Assembly: GCA_903813345.2 (NCBI GenBank)
Contig: CAIIXF020000011.1
Span: 4,614,571-4,678,570, forward strand
DNA from: Owenia fusiformis
Taxonomy: Eukaryota > Annelida > Polychaeta > Sabellida > Oweniidae
Direction: 5' to 3'
DNA: 64,000 nt
Each line of letters begins with the position of its first letter. Position 1 is the first letter of the stretch. The translations under genes were made by a program, and so were the position numbers. The notes under the pieces are model-generated. The model did no database searches, was not told the DNA's origin, and saw only the letters and a program-made list of their open reading frames with translations. Shown one piece after another: positions 9,707-56,706 of this stretch.

Positions 9707-10087
9707 ATGCTTAAGTTTGTGTGCCTCTTCGCCCTTGTGGCCGTTGCCTGTGCCGCTCCCCGTAGCTATGGATACGGAGATGATGAGAACCGTGATGGCG
9801 TCCCAGATTCCCTTGATGCCAACCGTGATGGCAAAGTAGACTACGGATATGGATATCCCAGATATGGCTATGGATACAAAAGCTATGGATACCAGCCCTA
9901 TGGTTACGAATACGTTCCATATGGAGATGGATACCCATATGCCAATGTTGGACCCAACGGAGCTGTTGTCAAGTCCCCATCAGGTCTGATTGTTGGAGAC
10001 AATGGTGGTTACATCAATGCCCAGACTGGAAAGGTTGTTGGACCCGATGGATACGTTGTCCCCGAGGGATACGGATATGGATATTAA
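9707..10087 (+). CDS. Secreted Tyr/Gly-rich protein with two calcium-loop motifs (shell-matrix-like)
   Basis: 126 residues, all in one exon (9694-10088). The ATG at 9707 is chosen over one 51 bases upstream because that lies before the 3' splice site at 9693 and because this start gives a clean signal peptide (residues 1-16, ...LFALVAVACA, cleaved before APR). Residues 26-34 and 37-45 each fit D-x-N-x-D-G-x-x-D, the calcium loop seen in EF-hand and thrombospondin type 3 repeats. Residues 46-78 are repeats of YGYG, YGYP and YGYK type. The middle has Gly/Pro-rich GPNG and GPDG turns, and the protein ends GYGYGY. Secreted Gly/Tyr-rich proteins of this size are common in mollusc shell and cuticle matrices, so a structural, mineral-associated role is inferred, not shown. 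A GTGAGT donor directly follows the stop codon, so the 3' UTR is spliced. The gene lies within an intron of the minus-strand gene. Confidence 0.88.
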   Translation: MLKFVCLFALVAVACAAPRSYGYGDDENRDGVPDSLDANRDGKVDYGYGYPRYGYGYKSYGYQPYGYEYVPYGDGYPYANVGPNGAVVKSPSGLIVGDNGGYINAQTGKVVGPDGYVVPEGYGYGY

Positions 10088-11007: not shown

Positions 11008-11290
11008 ACAACATTTGGGACACTATGTATTTGTTCTAATTGGATTAAACAACATTTGGGACACCATGTATTTATTCTAATTGTATTAGACAACATTTGG
11101 GACACCATGTATTTATTCTAGACAACATTTGGGACACCATGTATTTATTCTAATTCTATTAGACAACATTTGGGACACCATGTATTTATTCTAATTCTAT
11201 TAGACAACATTTGAGACACCATGTATTTATTCTAATTGTATTAGACAACATTTGGGACACCATGTATTTATTCTAATTGGATTAAACACT
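11008..11290. repeat. ~41-bp minisatellite beside a 5' splice site
   Basis: About seven units of ACAACATTTGGGACACCATG plus TATTTATTCTAATTGTATTAG, several nearly identical. One unit, near 11101-11120, is short. On the minus strand the array starts about 15 bases past the donor of exon 11348-11297, so it lies at the very beginning of that intron. Confidence 0.9.
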
Positions 11291-11296
11291 AATTAC

Positions 11297-11348
11297 CTGT
11301 TGTATTCTTATCATCTGAAGTATTCTCCAGGAATGTGATGTCTTCATC
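11297..11348 (-). CDS. Tyrosine-rich tail gene, 52-base exon
   Basis: On the minus strand the acceptor ATATTTTTAAG is followed by 17 open codons, DEDITFLENTSDDKNTT, and one base. The donor is GTAATT. The exon enters in phase 0, matching the phase-0 end of exon 12148-12015, and leaves in phase 1, matching the 28-base exon at 7323. The peptide is acidic and has an N-T-T sequon, which would be glycosylated only if it were extracellular. I infer a cytoplasmic tail from the neighbouring exons. The exon is short, so the call depends on the chain of phases. Confidence 0.62.
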
Positions 11349-11639
11349 CTTAAAAATATAAAATCATGTATTAACTCAATTAAACTATAAAGTATGACAT
11401 AATGTATTGTTCAACATTTCAAAATGTCAGGACATGCTGTGTTTAACATTTGAACAAACATATTCTACATCCCAAAACATATTGTTTTTAACATTTCTAC
11501 ATACACATACTTGCTATGTTCGTTTCCGTTTGTTTACTTGATTAAGAAAATGCTATGTTTAATACATGACATACAAACACAGGATATGTTCAACATTATA
11601 ACATCTCAAATCAAGCTGTATTCAACATTTTGATATATG

Positions 11640-12014
11640 AAAAAAAAATGTATTCAACATTTCTACATACCAAAACATGCTGTTCAACATTTCAACGTAC
11701 CAAAACATGCAGTTTAACATTTCTGCATACCAAATCATGCTGCATTCAACATTTCAAAATATAAAAACACAATGAATTCAACATTTCTACATACCAAAAC
11801 ATGATCTGTTCAACATTTCTACATACCAAAACATGCTGTGTCACGCATATCTACATACCAAAACATGTTATATTCAACATTTCTACATACCAAAACATGC
11901 TGTTCAACATTTCTACATACCAAAACAAGCTGTGTTCAACATATCTACATAACAAAACATGTTGTGTTCAACATTTCTACATACCAAAACATGCTGTTCA
12001 ACATTTCTACATAC
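11640..12014. repeat. 30-32-bp minisatellite made of copies of a 5' splice junction
   Basis: About 12 units reading, on the minus strand, ACAGCATGTTTTG then GTATGTAGAAATGTTGA. The first block is the last bases of exon 12148-12015 and the second is the start of its intron, so nearly every unit carries an exon-end plus GTATGT donor. Units farther from the exon are more diverged and some have lost the donor. Confidence 0.9.
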
Positions 12015-12148
12015 CAAAACATGCTGTGTTCCACTATCACTTGGCCTGATAAGTTGGTAAAGGTGTAGATTTCTCTCAGATAACAGATTGTGGAGAGCAG
12101 ATTGGAAGGCCTCAATCTCACCATTGATCTTCTCCCGAAGCACAGCAT
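12015..12148 (-). CDS. Tyrosine-rich tail gene, 134-base exon with a helical segment
   Basis: On the minus strand the acceptor TTCTGATTTCAG is followed by 44 codons (AVLREKINGEIEAFQSALHN... to ...SDSGTQHVL) and a GTATGT donor. It enters in phase 1: G from exon 30404-30254 plus AT makes Asp. It leaves in phase 0. Residues REKINGEIEAFQSALHNLLSE have the spacing of an amphipathic, possibly coiled-coil helix, followed by LYQLIRPSDSG. The codons look like ordinary coding sequence and no other frame is as good. Both flanks are minisatellites built from this exon's own splice junctions (11640-12014 and 12149-13880). The family is not recognised. Confidence 0.72.
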
Positions 12149-13880
12149 CTGAAATCAGAAGTACAGCACCTAAAATTAGAAGTACAGCATCTAAAATTAG
12201 AAGTACAGCATCTAAAATCAGAAGTACAGCATCTAAAATTAGAAGTACAGCATCTAAAATTAGAAGTACAACATCTTAAATTAGAAGTACAGCATCTAAA
12301 GTTAGAAGTACAGTGTCTAAATTTAGAAGTACAGTATCTAAAATTAGAAGTACAGCGTCTAAATTTAGAAGTACAGTATCTACAATTAGAAGTACAGCAT
12401 TTGAAATCAGAAGTGCAGCACCTAAAATTAGAAGTTCAGCATCTAAAATTAGAAGTACAGCATCAAAAATTAGAAGTACACCATCTAAAGTTAGAAGTAC
12501 AGCATCTAAAATTAGAAGAACAGCATCTAAAGTTAGAAGTACAGCATCCAAAGTTAGAAGTACAGCGTCTAAAACTAGAAGCACAACATCTAAAATTAGA
12601 AGTACAGCATCTAAAATTAGAAGCGCAGCATCTACAATTAGAAGTACAGTATCTAACATAAGAAGCACAGCATCTAAAATTAGAAGTACAGCATCTAAAA
12701 TCAGAAGTACAGCATCTAAAGTTAGAAGTACAGCATCTAAAATTAGAAGCGCAGCATCTACAATTAGAGGTACAGCATCTAAAATCAGAAGTACAGCATC
12801 TAAAATTAGAAGTACAGCATCTAAAATTAGAAGTACAGCATCTAAAATCAGAAGTACAGCATCTAAAATCAGAAGTACAGCATCTAAAATTAGAAGTACA
12901 GCATCTAAAGTTAGAAGTACAGTATCTAAAATCAGAAGTACAGCATCTAAAGTTAGAAGTACAGCATCTAAAATTAGAAGTACAGCATCTACAATTAGAG
13001 GTACAGCATCTAAAATCAGAAGTACAGCATCTAAAATTAGAAGTACAGCATCTAAAATTAGAAGTACAGCATCTAAAATCAGAAGTACAGCATCTAAAAT
13101 CAGAAGTACAGCATCTAAAATTAGAAGTACAGCATCTAAAGTTAGAAGTACAGCATCTAAAATTCGAAGCACAGAATCTGAAATTAGAAGCACAGCATCT
13201 AAAATTAGAAGTACAGCATCTAAAATCAGAAGTACAGCATCTAAAATTAGAAGTACAGCATCTAAAGTTAGAAGTACAGCATCTAAAATTAGAAGCGCAG
13301 CATCTACAATTAGAGGTACAGCATCTAAAATCAGAAGTACAGCATCTAAAATTCGAAGCACAGAATCTGAAATTAGAAGTACAGCATCTAAAATCAGAAG
13401 TACAGCATCTTAAATTAGAAGTACAGCATCTAAAGTTAGAAGTACAGCATCTAAAATTAGAAGCGCAGCATCTACAATTAGAAGTGCAGCATCTAAAATT
13501 AGAAGTACAGCATCTCAAATTAGAAGTACAGCATCCTAAATTAGAAGCACAGCATCTAAAATAAGAACTAAAGCATCTAAAATTAAAAGTACAGCATCTA
13601 AAATAAGAAGTACAGCATCTAAAATTAGAAGTACAGCATCTAAAATTCGAAGCACAGAATCTGAAATTAGAAGCACAGCATCTAAAATTAGAAGTACAGC
13701 ATCTAAAATCAGAAGTACAGCATCTAAAATTAGAAGAACAGCATCTAAAATTAGAAGCGCAGAATCTAAAATTAGAAGCACAGCATCTAAAATAAGAACT
13801 AAAGCATCTAAAATTAAAAGTACAGCATCTAAAATAAGAAGTACAGCATCTAAAATTAGAAGTACTGCATCTAAAATTGT
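12149..13880. repeat. 21-bp minisatellite made of copies of a 3' splice junction (~80 units)
   Basis: Plus-strand unit AGAAGTACAGCATCTAAAAT plus one T, about 80 times, with point variants (GCGCAGC, TACAATTAGAGG, AAAGTTAG) that recur together at multiples of 21 bp, showing higher-order blocks. On the minus strand each unit is TTCTAATTTTAG then ATGCTGTAC, which copies the last intron bases and first exon bases of exon 12148-12015. Because 21 is a multiple of three, long frames stay open on both strands. The 360-residue frames of LLILDAV or SKIRSTA type are products of the repeat and not called as genes. Confidence 0.95.
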
Positions 13881-14949
13881 CACAGTTGTCTTAAAGCATT
13901 TATCATGTTTGTTTCTTTTTACCATATTTCTATCTTAATGTAATGTCTGATGTTCACTTTTGTAATACAGAAACATAGAAGCACTTCACACATTTTGATA
14001 TATACATGTACAATGTACATGTATATAGCATAAACTAATAAAAGGTATCAAAATGCAAAATGTCACAACCTACCATTTGTTGCAGACACTGAACTCTGAA
14101 TGCTGAATCCGCACACTAAACATCCTTCACAAAAAGTTGGAAATTATAACAACATGTCAATACAATACTTGTGGTAGTTGTGATTTATAACAAAAGTCAA
14201 AGGTAGAGCCATTTTAGTGTGATATTGAGACTGATATATTCTATTACTCTGGGAATACAAGTGGTTAGAGTTATTACAAGAAAACTGTTACAGAATTCAG
14301 TATAAAATATTTGAAGGTTATTTAGGACGAGAATTACAGCTATTAGCCCTTTCTTTGCAATTACAATCAAACATCTGGGACTTTCATGACAATGGTGAAT
14401 GGTTAACAATGCCCTGGCCAAACGAGGATTGGTACATGTAGCTCCTTCATTCAAACTTAATCTTCCATTGCCTGGCATGAAACAATACGGTAACAATTTT
14501 TCCCAGATGCTGAAGACTAGCATTGCCAAAAAGTACAGTTTAGTTTGAATATTAGCATGATAGTTGTACACTTTATAATGTATATAGACTAGATACTTGG
14601 TCCCAAGATGTACTTGGAAGAAATGTTTAAAAAATATTATAATATAAAATAACATGTTACTAAATTGTTCAAAGCCAGGCAAGCAAGTTTGAAAAATGAC
14701 TACCAATCCTCCTTTACCCTGACCCAGCAAGATAATTGATTGAAAACGTTTTCAACAAGTGCAGTCAAGTGATTTTAATAAATGGCACTTTTGTCTGCCC
14801 ATTTATTAATTAGGCACACAAGCAGTCACGTTTATTTTACAAAAATAATATTTTCATATACCCCTTGCTCATAATCAAAATTTGATATTTATTCAAAATT
14901 AGGTCATTAAGGTAGATCTGTCCGACTTGAATTTTTTTACAATTTTCAT
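13881..14949. other. Intron sequence with one dispersed repeat copy
   Basis: 14050-14185 is a diverged copy of the repeat at 7428-7575 (ATGCAAAATGTCACAACCTA). The rest shows no exon with acceptable splice sites. A 177-codon reverse frame at 14197-14730 has no features of a gene. Confidence 0.4.
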
Positions 14950-17130: not shown

Positions 17131-17234
17131 AAGCAAGAGCCATTTCAGGGGAGAAAGTATGTGCCTGATATATCAGTCACTCTAGATATTAAACAGGTTG
17201 ATTAAGCAATTTATACTTTGCATAATGCAGCAAG

Positions 17235-17477
17235 ATGTGGAAGCTTCTTATCTCCGTGGCCCTGGTTGGCCTTTGCTCTGCCGAATGGTACTCCGACACA
17301 GACATCAAATTCACTGTGACAGACGCACCTGCTGAAGATCGTGTAGAAGGACAAGCTGCACGATTAGTTACAGATGCCATTCCTAAGACTTACATAATTG
17401 GAAGAGTCATTCCGATTATTGATGTCATTGAAGATGCTGTTGATATCATTCGTGTCATCACTACCAGAACAGGAAGG
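17235..17477 (+). CDS. Secreted Cys-containing protein, exon 1 (signal peptide and pro-region)
   Basis: The ATG at 17235 opens 81 codons: a signal peptide (MWKLLISVALVGLCSA, cleavage expected before EWY), then an acidic stretch (DTDIKFTVTDAPAEDRVEGQ) and a segment of Ile/Val/Asp pattern (IIGRVIPIIDVIEDAVDIIR) that could form an amphipathic helix. The exon ends ACAGGAAGG before GTAAGG in phase 0. Exons 2 (18484-18623) and 3 (27153-27240) join in frame to give 156 residues with Cys at 88, 105, 109, 131 and 156 in the mature part. The family is not recognised. A secreted defence or matrix protein is possible, but that is inference. The gene is on the opposite strand to, and inside an intron of, the tyrosine-rich tail gene. 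Confidence 0.78.
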
Positions 17478-17830
17478 GTAAGGTTATGTTCAATTCAAGG
17501 CTATCTTCAATTCAAGGCTATACTCAGTTCATAAGGCTAAACTCAATTCACGGCTATACTATACTCAGTTAAAGGCTATATTCAATTCAAGGCTATACTC
17601 AGTTCAGAAGGCTACACTCAATTCACGGCCATACTATACTCAGTTCAAGGCTATATTCAATTCAAGGCTATACTCAAGGCAAAGCTATATTCAATTCAAG
17701 GCTTTTCTAAATTCAAGGCTTTATTATTACTCAATTCAAGGCTATATTCAGCTCAACTCAAGGCTATACTCAATTCAAAGCTATACTCAAATTAAGGATA
17801 TATTCAATTCAAGGCTATACTAACACATGT
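17478..17830. repeat. 17-20-bp minisatellite starting exactly at a 5' splice site
   Basis: The intron opens GTAAGGTTATGTTCAATTC and continues as about 18 units of AAGGCTATACTCAATTC. The first unit is the donor sequence itself from its third base. Units diverge with distance. The rest of intron 1 (17831-18483) shows no element. Confidence 0.85.
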
Positions 17831-30253: not shown

Positions 30254-30404
30254 CTGTATGTGCTATGGCATCACTGTTGGCATCGATGTTATCATAGGGG
30301 GCGCTATGCATAGTAAGATCATCTGCATTGGCATAATCCTGCATAGAATAATCAGCATTGGTGTACATCTCTTGGTCACTTTCTATAATATCATCAGCAT
30401 TCTC
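30254..30404 (-). CDS. Tyrosine-rich tail gene, 151-base exon with repeated Tyr motifs
   Basis: On the minus strand TATGTTTTTATAG precedes 50 codons starting ENADDIIESDQEMYTNADYS and ending NSDAIAHT plus one base. GTAAAA follows. It enters in phase 0, as exon 33328-33178 leaves, and exits in phase 1, as exon 12148 requires. It has four Tyr (EMYTN, ADYSM, QDYAN, APYDN) in an acidic context and no hydrophobic run, like the cytoplasmic tails of receptors that are tyrosine-phosphorylated. That role is inferred. Its own first ~73 bases are the source of the 87-bp array filling the preceding intron. Confidence 0.72.
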
Positions 30405-31536
30405 CTATAAAAACATACAATAATCAGCACTGGTATACATCTCTTGGTCACTTTCTATAGCATCATCAGTACATTCTCCAATAGCATTCTCCTATAAAAC
30501 ATACAAACATCAGCACTGTTGTACATCTTTTGGTCACATTCTATAACATCATCAGTACATTCTCCAATAGCATTCTTCTATAAAAACATACAATAATCAG
30601 CTTTGGTGTACATCTCTTGGTCACTTTCTATGACATCATCAGTACATTCTCCAATAGCATTCTTCTATAAAAACATACAATAATCAGCAGTGGTGTACAT
30701 CTCTTGGTCGCTTTCAATAACATCATCAGTACATTCTCGAATGGCATTCTCCTATAAAAACATACAATAATCAGCACTGATGTACATCTCTTGGTCACTT
30801 TCTCTAACATCATCAGTACATTCTCCAATAGCATTCTCCTATAAAAACATAGAACAATCAGCACTGGTGTACATCTCTTGGTCACTTTTTATAACATCAT
30901 CAGTACATTCTCCAATAGCATTCTCCTATAAAAACATAGAACAATCAGCACTGGTGTACATCTCTTGGTCACTTTCTATAACATTATCAGTACATTCTCC
31001 AATGGCATTCTCCTATAAAAACATAGAATAATCAGCATTGGTGTACATCTCTTGGTCACTTTCTCTAACATCATCAGTACATTCTCCAATAGCATTCTCC
31101 TATAAAAACATAGAACAATCAGCAGTGGTGTACATCTCTTGGTCACTTTCTATAACATCATCAGTACATTCTCCAATAGCATTCTCCTATAAAAACATAC
31201 AATAATCAGCAGTGGTGTACATCTCTTGGTCACTTTCTCTAACATCATCAGTACATTCTCCAATAGCATTCTCCTATAAAAACATACAATAATCAGCACT
31301 GGTGTACATCTCTTGGTCACTTTCTATAACATCATCAGTACATTCTCCAATAGCATTCTCCTATAAAAACATACAATAATCAGCACAGGCGTTCATCTGT
31401 TGGTCACTTTCTATGACATCATCAATACATTCTCGAATGGCATTCTCCTATAAAAACATACAATAATCAGCACTGGTGTAAATCTCTTGGTCACTTTCTA
31501 TAACATCATCAGTACATTCTCCAATAGCATTCTCCT
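30405..31536. repeat. 87-bp array copying the start of an exon and its 3' splice site (~13 units)
   Basis: On the minus strand each unit reads GAGAATGCTATTGGAGAATG...GATGTTATAGAAAGTGACC, AAGAGATGTACACCAGTGCT, GATTATTGTATGTTTTTATAG (last block quoted across the junction; 20 bases or fewer each on reading GATTATTGTATG and TTTTTATAG). The first ~73 bases copy exon 30404-30254 and the last ~14 copy its acceptor. The array abuts the real acceptor. After a hAT insertion a final partial unit (33124-33177) runs right into the donor of exon 33178. Confidence 0.93.
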
Positions 31537-31544
31537 ATAAAAAC

Positions 31545-45053: not shown

Positions 45054-46082
45054 CTAGACATTTAATCCAAGGCTTCTAATAGTCAAATAGAACTTTTGTT
45101 TAACGAAATTGTATATCTCATAAGAGTTCTTGTATCTGTTTTTAATAAACTGAATGATTTCATTAGATGGTCTTTTCTTTCTTGATGATGGTGTAGCATT
45201 TTGTTTCTTTTTTGACTGAATGTAAAATTGTACCATGCCTTTAAAGTATGATGGCAGAAGCATTTCCAAGGCATGTACAGTGTGTGTATACTCCTCAGTC
45301 AACCCTATCAACATGTAGTATTTCTCAATGTTATATTTTGCTTTTGCAAGGCCATAGTCCACATTGGCGCACTCATTTTCATGCCCGCAAAACCATCGAA
45401 CATAATCGTCGTAGTCAACTAACATACATTTTGTAACTAAGGAAGAACTGTTGAGATTATCTCTTATACATTTTTCAAATGTTTCATTCTTTGAATGAGT
45501 TTTATAGAATTCAATTCTTTTATTTTTCCTAGAGTTAAGCCTTGTAAATTGATAATAAAAACGTGACAAAGTTCTCTCAAAGGGATCCCTTATGATATTA
45601 AAATATATTGGCTGCCTGTACCCAAACTTTTCAAAATCCATGAAATATATATGTCGCTCAAATATAACTTTATTTGTAGTAAGATTTTGAAATGATTTTA
45701 CATATTCACCAAGCCCCTCCTTATCTAATTGGTGGTTTTTCTCACCATATAATGTTGATCGTATCAAGTTGAACTTGGCCCTTATTCTCAATTGGCCCAG
45801 AAGGTAAAGCATCGTTGATGATCCACATTTCGACATTCTGTTGTATATAACAAGTTTTTTAGTTGCTTTTGGATAAACTCCAAATGGTAACATGTTGTCA
45901 TTTAGATGTTGATCGTATCCGTATTTCGCCTCCTCAGATTTCTTGACTGGCACTGGAACTCCTTCTTTCATGTCTCTATACGTAGTTTGATACTTTAAAT
46001 TCACCATGAGTATAATCATCCCGAGGCATAAAATGAAGTACACCTTTGCAAATGATGTTTTGTTTTTTAACATTTTGAGCAA
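45054..46082 (-). CDS. UST: Uronyl 2-sulfotransferase-like Golgi enzyme
   Basis: 342 residues in one exon. A type II membrane layout: short basic N-terminus, a hydrophobic span at about 12-30 (AKVYFILCLGMIILMVNL), a stem, then the catalytic domain. The 5'-PAPS-binding loop is YNRMSKCGSSTMLYLL (80-95), the 3'-phosphate motif is IIRDPFERTLSRFYY (163-177), and H144 in FERHIYF sits where the family has its catalytic base. The C-terminal LPSYFKGM..FY and the (S)NEII..IKNRYKNSYEIYNFVKQKF stretch follow the uronyl/heparan sulfate 2-O-sulfotransferase family, whose members move sulfate from PAPS to the 2-position of uronic acid in glycosaminoglycans. The CGSST loop is closer to the uronyl enzymes (dermatan/chondroitin) than to heparan sulfate 2-O-sulfotransferase. 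Four N-glycosylation sequons (133, 199, 211, 295) fit a Golgi lumenal domain. Length is normal. Exact substrate is uncertain. Confidence 0.85.
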   Translation of the reverse strand: MLKMLKNKTSFAKVYFILCLGMIILMVNLKYQTTYRDMKEGVPVPVKKSEEAKYGYDQHLNDNMLPFGVYPKATKKLVIYNRMSKCGSSTMLYLLGQLRIRAKFNLIRSTLYGEKNHQLDKEGLGEYVKSFQNLTTNKVIFERHIYFMDFEKFGYRQPIYFNIIRDPFERTLSRFYYQFTRLNSRKNKRIEFYKTHSKNETFEKCIRDNLNSSSLVTKCMLVDYDDYVRWFCGHENECANVDYGLAKAKYNIEKYYMLIGLTEEYTHTVHALEMLLPSYFKGMVQFYIQSKKKQNATPSSRKKRPSNEIIQFIKNRYKNSYEIYNFVKQKFYLTIRSLGLNV

Positions 46083-46104
46083 TGCTTTTCACCTATGATC
46101 CAGA
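46083..46104 (-). promoter_or_regulatory. 3' splice site and 5' UTR start of the sulfotransferase coding exon
   Basis: On the minus strand GCAGCTATTTACAG precedes TCTGGATCATAGG, 22 bases before the ATG. Partner of the donor at 48193. Confidence 0.5.
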
Positions 46105-54876: not shown

Positions 54877-56706
54877 GGGATGTTTCAGCTATTCGGAATC
54901 TGAAAGTGAGCTTTACAGGGAAAGTGAAAGTCAGATTTCAGGGGTCATGTCATAAGGGTTTAGAAAGAAACAACAATTTATTTCCAAAATTTATTTCAGA
55001 ATTTTATCCGTGTGTACACTCCACTAGTTACTCTCAAACTCAGATGAAGATAACTCAATACCTAATATTAGACTCAATTATTATCAAGAGAATCATAAAC
55101 AATAATGAATACATACCTTTCTGTTCCGACATTTTACAGTCAATTCCTGTGAAGAGTGAACATCAATGAAGAAGGCAATAAGTGTTTGATTTATATGAAT
55201 AGTATTAAATACTTCAATGAATGTATTGTATACATACAAATACTATATATAGTCTACTCTCATACTATATACCCATTGAAGCTTTTGAAATAGATCCTGA
55301 GTTGTTTAGGCAATTTGTTCGGGGAGAATGTCAAAAATAGTGAAGTATTTTTATGATTGTATTTTCAGTAGAATGCGCACTTTGAACCTAAGAGAGAAGC
55401 ATGCACTAGTTGCATTGCTTATGTTTCTAGCTGCACCACCACCAGAAGGCCTTCAAAGTGAGATAATTCCAACCCTATTGTTTTTATTGGCGCCTCCTCC
55501 AGATCCGTTGTTAAATTTTCGTAACAGATTGGGCGCAGATAACAACAATTGGCAAGGATGAGATGTCCTTGGATTATTTGAAAAACACCCATATGAGTCT
55601 TTTGAAACTGTTGGTGAAACAGTTAATACGTTTCATGAGATGGTTGGTAATTTTCTGCCTAGAACTTTTGATATGCGACATAACATGTCACCTCACAATA
55701 GACTACTCCTCACATTGATCTGGCTGAGATCGTACCCTTGTTATCCTCTACTCTCCTTGATGTTCGGTGTTAACATTACAACTGTGTCACGAGTCATTAA
55801 TGACGTTTGGCCAATATTATGGGAACTATATGCATCCAATGTACGCTGGCCATCTCTTGAAGAATGGAATGCAATGAGGAATAATTGGAATGATCTCCCA
55901 TTTGCAATTGGCTCTATTGATGGAACATCCCATGAAATTAACAGGCCAGAAAATGAACCCCAAGCACTTTTTTACTCTGGAAATAGAGGATACCATTGTA
56001 TGCATACCCAAGTAATAGTAGATAATAACAATGACCTTCATTATGTCCATAGTGGCTTTTTAGGTCATATGAATGATGCACAAACATTTGGCTATATGGC
56101 AAATATTGGGCCCGGGGGACCTTTAGTATTCCCTGAAGACTGTAGACTTTTAGCTGATAAAATATATCCATGTCGATACCCACTCCTTAGGAAGTATAAA
56201 AGTTTTGAAATACGCAGAAAACCCCTAAATTTACGTAAAAAATGTAAGCGGCTAAACAGAAAAATTGGGAGTAGGCGGAGTTATGTAGAGCATGTGATTG
56301 GTCACATCAAGGTTTTTAAGGTTATAGGTACACTTTTTCGCCACCCACGACAACATCTGGCAAAGCTCTCAGAATTGCCGGTCTTAGTATAAGGAGGGTT
56401 AATCTCTGAGACTACTTAAACTGCTCAATCAACTGTTCTATCAATACATGTAATATTCAGTACAAGAGAATATACTTTGTGTCATATTTCTAATAAATGT
56501 AATCCACAGCGAATAACAAATAAAAGCATCTTGAAATTATTTTAATGTTGCTATATTCTCTAAAAAGCACATTTAGCTTTGAAACTATTGATTTATCAGT
56601 TATAATAAACGTTTAATGCAACTGAACTTATGACATGACCCCTGAAATCTGACTTTCACTTTCCCTGTAAAGCTTACTTTCAGATTCCGAATAGCTGAAA
56701 CATCCC
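54877..56706 (+). mobile_element. 1.83-kb Harbinger/ISL2EU-type DNA transposon
   Basis: TIRs of about 80 bp begin GGGATGTTTCAGCTATTCGG and pair with CCGAATAGCTGAAACATCCC. TA stands at both borders (54875-54876, 56707-56708). The LINE frame is only restored with a 2-bp TA duplication, not the 3-bp TWA usual for Harbinger; this points towards ISL2EU-like relatives. It encodes one DDE transposase and no Myb/SANT second protein. Confidence 0.85.
55328..56392 (+). pseudogene. DDE (DDE_Tnp_4 / HARBI1-like) transposase with one in-frame stop
   Basis: The frame runs from the ATG at 55328 through one TGA (55559-55561, in GGA TGA GAT) to TAA at 56390-56392, about 354 codons. A helix-turn-helix-like region (NRLLLTLIWLRSYPCYPLLS, then FGVNITTVSRVI) precedes the catalytic core. 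D in AIGSIDGTSHEI, D in GHMNDAQTFG and E in SYVEHVIGHIK form the expected DDE triad, all present. The Q-x-x-x-x-F-Y-S-G-x-R-G-Y-H block (about 30 residues after the first D) is typical of this group. The stop would cut off the catalytic domain, or translation could start at ATG 55640. Confidence 0.88.

Follow-up and report, generated by a model that had tools for sequence, protein, structure and literature searches.

A probable coding exon in the Owenia fusiformis genome with a minisatellite-like array of its own splice junction at each border

How does an exon keep its borders when copies of its own acceptor and of its own donor stand in tandem beside it, and what are such arrays? The question is raised by a locus in a stretch of 64,000 nucleotides of Owenia fusiformis DNA (contig CAIIXF020000011.1; hereafter the window). 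On the minus strand, reading of the sequence places ATGCTGTGCTTC directly after ttctgatttcag and ACAGCATGTTTTG directly before gtatgtagaaatg, which bears out the borders of the exon, 12148–12015, that a preliminary description had proposed here. We refer to it as exon A. The features on which the analysis turns are the following:

12015–12148, minus strand: exon A, 134 nt, with a G/AT phase at its start and phase 0 at its end, DAVLREKINGEIEAFQSALHNLLSERNLHLYQLIRPSDSGTQHVL
12149–12160, minus strand: the acceptor next to the exon, ttctgatttcag, a CAG site like 3 others among the 79 with AG
12137–13882, minus strand: the acceptor-side array, 83 units of 21 bp, (TTCTAATTTTAG/ATGCTGTAC)n, reaching 12 nt into exon A
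11620–12027, minus strand: the donor-side array, 12 main units of 30–32 bp, (ACAGCATGTTTTG/GTATGTAGAAATGTTGA)n, with degenerate copies to ~11411

On the acceptor side, TRF reports a 21-bp array at 12137–13878 (83.0 copies, 88% matches, 0% indels), the units of which are ~6% off their consensus. The first 12 nt of exon A differ from this unit at a single position (11/12), and a genome pattern search with 33 nt of the upstream unit, allowing ≤3 mismatches, gave 68 matches, all of them inside the exon A array. The AG at the junction is retained in 79 of the 83 units in register (72 TAG, 4 CAG, 2 AAG and 1 GAG) and lost in 4, in agreement with the ~80 acceptor copies first counted. It is not specially preserved: for each of three other adjacent pairs, the count of intact units is 80. 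Mismatches per unit average 1.5 at the array ends versus 1.0 mid-array, a difference in keeping with unequal exchange that does not reach significance (Spearman rho 0.21, p = 0.052). Indels are absent across the 83 units, as against 1–17% in 13 other TRF rows (≥10 copies, <90% identity, from the window and the first 60 loci of the survey described below); several 4–5-copy arrays at 85–89% identity likewise show 0% indels in TRF. In most 21-bp units, CTAAT or CTGAT stands ~7 nt ahead of the AG of the unit and ~28 nt ahead of the AG that follows; we take this motif to be branch-point-like, and many of the acceptors could therefore be competent.

On the donor side, TRF reports a 32-bp family at 11620–12021 (12.8 copies). 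The first 13 nt of the unit and the end of exon A are identical (13/13). A donor-like GT is kept in 10 of the 12 main copies (12035–11654) and lost in 2, which agrees with the ~12 donor copies of the earlier count; a degenerate copy holds one further site, at 11504, which brings the total of donor-like sites from 12014 to 11504 to 11. The units of the two arrays are unrelated, and each has 12–13 nt in common with one exon end, which supports the independent duplication of the two borders that the preliminary description had suggested.

Its statement that it knew of no described case is not supported. In amphioxus, minisatellite-like tandem duplications of exon/intron boundaries, termed mirages, have been reported in globin, Adh, TnC and PGBD5 genes (PMC3087553, PMC3902484), the second of these reports adding PGBD5 and citing Adh and TnC. 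In the parts of these reports drawn on here, unit lengths are 10–72 bp (Adh3), 150–160 and 157 bp (globins) and 60 and 108 bp (PGBD5), the hosts are cephalochordates, array length is unstable between haplotypes or somatic cells, and regular splicing is left undisturbed (PMC3087553, PMC3902484). Like these mirages, whose units span the exon/intron border, carry exon bases together with AG or GT and can affect either border, the units at exon A combine exon and intron (the arrays take in 12 and 13 nt of the exon), retain many but not all signals (AG in 79/83 units, GT in 10/12 main copies) and fall within 10–160 bp (21 and 30–32 bp). Two features are new relative to the mirage cases in the portions of that literature consulted, namely the involvement of both borders of one exon, which we did not find in the amphioxus mirage descriptions (PMC3087553, PMC3902484) or other open-licence literature seen, and the copy number, 83 as against 6 and 3 in the BflGb6 haplotypes. 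The host differs as well, since exon A, known from genomic sequence alone, apparently belongs to an annelid, and mirages thus probably extend to annelids. PF16915, the erythrocruorin-linker family of annelids, has three matches above the cut-off on contig C6, one of them interrupted by a stop. Searches for the GFP family and for mollusc haemocyanin returned no match, but neither did their controls, and COX1 had no match. A host in amphioxus, considered in view of the mirage reports, was set aside. As the structural definition applies, we file the arrays of exon A as mirages.

Turri et al. in 1995 reportedly described a minisatellite in human IFI6 (6-16) that provides splice donors. This is a second relevant precedent: as described in the part of the source used here, a tandem repeat lies at an exon end with donor sites in its units, as at exon A, but on the donor side only, and two downstream repeat units are used, giving three mRNAs (PMC4526556). 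At exon A, one extra donor (11984) would keep the frame. Human paralogues with internal tandem repeats, in which minisatellite expansion activates splice sites, are a more distant likeness, as the repeats described in the source text available to us lie within exons turned introns rather than forming arrays of an existing border (PMC2812944). Among annelids, the earthworm metallothionein gene has intronic minisatellites and a duplicated exon 4 whose copies are missing from transcripts; boundary arrays are not described in the portion of that report consulted (PMC12783039).

We consider it likely that each border of exon A underwent a separate tandem duplication that was amplified into a mirage, that the extra sites are decoys while the proximal copies are spliced, and that the whole arrangement is near-neutral. 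Exon A itself would then be a normal coding exon in an uncharacterised gene. Each duplication would have taken in a few coding bases and the adjacent intron, and slippage or unequal exchange would have grown the duplicates into minisatellites. Normally, splicing would join the copies directly next to the exon body, the nearest pair being favoured by exon definition, in which the sites flanking a short exon are recognised together. Competition among acceptors may be settled by exon proximity together with CAG versus TAG, the nearest acceptor being among the few CAG. Of the 5 acceptors that a simple filter retained at 60 conserved-domain loci, a small sample, 4 are CAG as well. Amplification of the junctions would be tolerated because splicing uses the exon-proximal copy, and the arrays may persist because they are intronic and mostly harmless. 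The donor GTATGT of exon A counts against this explanation, being absent among 21 donors picked from conserved exons, and so does the use of downstream repeat donors reported for human IFI6 (PMC4526556).

The consequences of using other copies can be read from the frames, for which the next candidate exon is needed:

11297–11348, minus strand: candidate exon B, DEDITFLENTSDDKNTT/G, whose phase 0 start fits the end of exon A

According to the preliminary description, every upstream acceptor is in frame. The unit length of 21 bp does preserve the frame by itself, but the array contains stops in the exon A frame at 12278 (TAA), 13412 (TAA), 13517 (TGA) and 13538 (TAG), and most site pairs give no open exon in phase. 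Assuming a phase-1 exon before exon A and candidate exon B after it, the 79 acceptors and 11 donors form 869 pairs, of which 553 are frame-shifted, 302 are in phase with a stop and 14 are open. The open pairs combine the 7 nearest acceptors with the first 2 donors (12014 and 11984). At the one stop-prone position in the 21-bp unit there are 9 changes, and 4 of them create stops. Frame selection on the 21-bp array was considered and is not supported, because stops are not avoided.

These counts bear on the proposal that the arrays are a working alternative-splicing device, which would add LLILDAV-like heptads on the N-terminal side and VCRNVEQHVL on the C-terminal side, or lead to decay, with array length tuning the product. 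The 7 open acceptors, in 21-nt steps, and 2 open donors would provide 14 isoforms, the 21-bp array is free of indels, and human IFI6 offers a precedent in which repeat donors are used, as far as the consulted part of the source goes (PMC4526556). We nevertheless regard such a device as unlikely, given that an open in-phase exon is out of reach for 72 of the 79 acceptors and for 9 of the 11 donors, that changes at the stop-prone position create stops as stated, and that amphioxus mirages, in the passages cited, are regularly spliced (PMC3087553, PMC3902484). A more specific form, which we judge slightly less likely again, would be a splice rheostat in an annelid: the six extra acceptors and donor 11984 would give graded proteins, the remaining sites would lead to stop codons and decay, and array length, changing quickly between individuals, would set the output. 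If so, the absence of indels from 83 units and the multiple-of-3 periods described below would be traces of selection.

The likely reading, mirages at the borders of an ordinary exon, also depends on 12148–12015 being an exon at all. We scored coding potential from codon usage, in bits per codon, training on 60 kinase and myosin matches from the same genome and taking stop-free non-coding windows as the null set; in a second run, a secreted-protein ORF on the plus strand (~9707–10087) was masked as well. Exon A scores 0.252. While the plus-strand ORF is left unmasked, 0.8% of 8,886 non-coding windows score as high; once it is masked, none of 8,601 do. Without its array-homologous part it scores 0.244, matched by 0.09% of 13,684 windows. 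The other two sense frames score −0.087 and 0.002, with a stop in one of the two, and the antisense frames score 0.142, −0.105 and 0.094, with stops in all three. Candidate exon B scores 0.299 (reached by 0.7% of 42,920 windows). Together these results suggest a coding exon at 12148–12015, a conclusion that we regard as well supported but short of proof. That no exon exists here, the frame and splice motifs being coincidences beside two minisatellites, appears improbable: the array-free part keeps its score, the phases fit candidate exon B, and donor and acceptor motifs occur at both array edges. Such a coincidence would account for the proportion of unmasked windows that score as high, for the antisense frame at 0.142 and for the failure to find a homologue. 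With exon A and the exons after it, a Pfam search returned no family, a PDB search returned a single match at chance level (E = 2), and a genome similarity search recovered only the locus itself, and of the query only the exon A part. The lack of a homologue in Pfam and PDB, with one genomic copy, is counted against our preferred explanation too.

Two other elements lie close to these exons. A further array begins at most 10 nt from the donor of candidate exon B:

11008–11288, minus strand: 41-bp intronic array, its units without a junction as judged by eye

In addition, the small plus-strand ORF at 9707–10087, between minus-strand candidate exons, encodes 126 aa with a signal-peptide-like start and a YGYG-rich body; it had no Pfam match above the cut-off.

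The 21-bp array might instead be translated, as a coiled-coil-like heptad repeat exon that ends in 12148–12015. The LLILDAV frame has an uninterrupted run of 377 aa, and the unit is an indel-free multiple of 3. Open frames also exist on the opposite strand, as expected for a repeated stop-free unit, and four in-frame stops interrupt the array, the nearest at 12278. The last six units score 0.031, which 13% of non-coding windows reach, and read-through on the donor side scores −0.124, and we hold translation of the array to be very improbable. Weaker still is the idea of an assembly artefact, in copy number or in one of the arrays, for while the locus is known from one assembly and tandem arrays are often mis-sized, the units are diverged (88% alike upstream, 75–85% downstream), the array edges within the exon are sharp and the same architecture occurs at other loci.

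At least four further exons have junction arrays: a second exon of the window, exon Z, and exons of a KIF4-like kinesin, a kinesin-2-like gene and, at its donor, a LATS-like kinase. Their features are as follows:

30254–30404, minus strand: exon Z, ENADDIIESDQEMYTNADYSMQDYANADDLTMHSAPYDNIDANSDAIAHT/G, the second junction-arrayed exon of the window
30396–31544, minus strand: acceptor-side array of exon Z, 87-bp period, 14 junction copies of ttttatag/(G or A)AGAATGC, the last being its own acceptor
G000:C2:23266150-23269850, minus strand: KIF4-like kinesin (L087), acceptor and most of the exon in 18 copies, ccatag/ATTCACTAGGAG
L066, 1835–2114, plus strand: kinesin-2/OSM-3-like gene, ttttgtag/GTATGCTAACAG in 4 copies at 93 bp, adjoining the matched exon
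L018, 667–1472, minus strand: LATS-like kinase, donor AAAAAG/gtaagtaatgat at the head of a 23-bp array of 35 copies

Exon Z scores 0.271, which none of 6,714 windows reach, and 0.242 outside the array homology (reached by 0.3% of 20,177 windows). All 13 of its upstream acceptor copies run into a stop, 12 of them after 28 codons and one after 40. The phase at its end is the phase required upstream of exon A; we do not claim that the two belong to one gene, because 18 kb and plus-strand ORFs lie between them.

The two kinesins offer a comparison with conserved proteins. In the KIF4-like gene, which was first noticed as regularly spaced repeats in the list of kinesin matches, apart from the listing of arrays by proximity, the copies are spaced at 159 bp (16 times) and 158 bp (once). 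All 17 upstream copies end in KNKPVAL or KNKPVVL followed by a stop, and VVNRDPQ continues from the last copy only. The alignment with KIF4 in PDB extends ~3 residues past the point at which the copies diverge (VNR), and alignments with other kinesins (KIF1A, KIF14) extend to residue 97 of 99. The three upstream copies in the kinesin-2-like gene all end in NEDPMLM and a stop, and from the last copy the OSM-3 alignment crosses the junction and continues ~20 residues past the divergence of the copies. Since kinesin homology runs on from the last copy only, the conserved protein apparently needs the exon-proximal acceptor in both genes, and choice of an upstream acceptor would be predicted to truncate the protein just after the motor domain. 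Over exon Z and the two kinesins, every one of the 33 extra acceptors runs into a stop. In the kinase array, the 12-mer gtaagtaatgat has 11 exact occurrences including the gene's own donor; the name LATS-like is our presumption from the sequence of the DFG region.

The periods of the four acceptor-side arrays (21, 87, 93 and 159) are all divisible by 3, which would happen by chance in 1 of 81 cases, a figure to be read as post hoc; the exceptions inside these arrays are single units of 86 and 158 bp. Donor-side periods (30–32 and 23) are mostly not multiples of 3. Plain neutrality predicts neither these acceptor periods nor the indel-free 21-bp array, and both weigh against our preferred explanation of near-neutral mirages.

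The wider distribution of arrays was surveyed at 85 loci with conserved domains, 60 kinase or myosin and 25 kinesin, some of which overlap. Arrays were near the matched segment at 7 of the 60 kinase/myosin loci (within 150 nt) and at 4 of the 25 kinesin loci (within 100 nt or overlapping). Six of these 11 loci were examined, that is, all except L008, L026, L054, L065 and L075. The junction is shared in L018 and L066, the kinase and the kinesin-2-like gene given above; L051, where the donor shows no more than a 2-copy match, is a doubtful case, and reading of the sequence at L038, L059 and L085 found an array near a conserved exon with the border not shared. Around matched segments, array coverage is 0–5% within 100 nt and 5–11% at 100–600 nt, and therefore no general pull of arrays toward exon edges is seen. 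Among the Ras matches listed, there was no run of regularly spaced copies like that of the KIF4-like kinesin, and the 19 of 194 ABC candidates that were scored were without a run of the kinesin type.

Several other loci came to light along the way. At G000:C9:37986009-37994334 (minus strand), 12 matches, all to roughly one part of the myosin head (positions 18–84), are spaced 0.3–1.9 kb apart; they lie upstream of other myosin-gene matches and look like alternative exons of a heavy-chain gene. At G000:C10:2256896-2257205 (plus strand), two kinase matches (positions 101–149 and 101–143), 178 bp apart, possibly represent a tandem copy of part of an exon. Within the window, a first exon that appears signal-peptide-like by eye (17200–17821, plus strand) has a 17–22-bp array starting within ~12 nt of its donor, with the junction not shared. 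The window also contains two long ORFs, which by eye resemble a Harbinger-type transposase (55562–56392, plus strand) and a sulfotransferase (45054–46088, minus strand).

Where near-identical splice sites stand in tandem next to a real exon, they amount to a natural experiment on site choice by the spliceosome. Of the arrays found here, those of the conserved kinesins are clean test cases: 3 and 17 acceptors are spare, and the protein outcome is known. Annotation pipelines may mis-model exons whose junctions are arrayed in this way. If the host is indeed an annelid, boundary-spanning minisatellites are no peculiarity of cephalochordates, and such arrays may generally give rise to splice-site turnover, truncated isoforms and intron gain.
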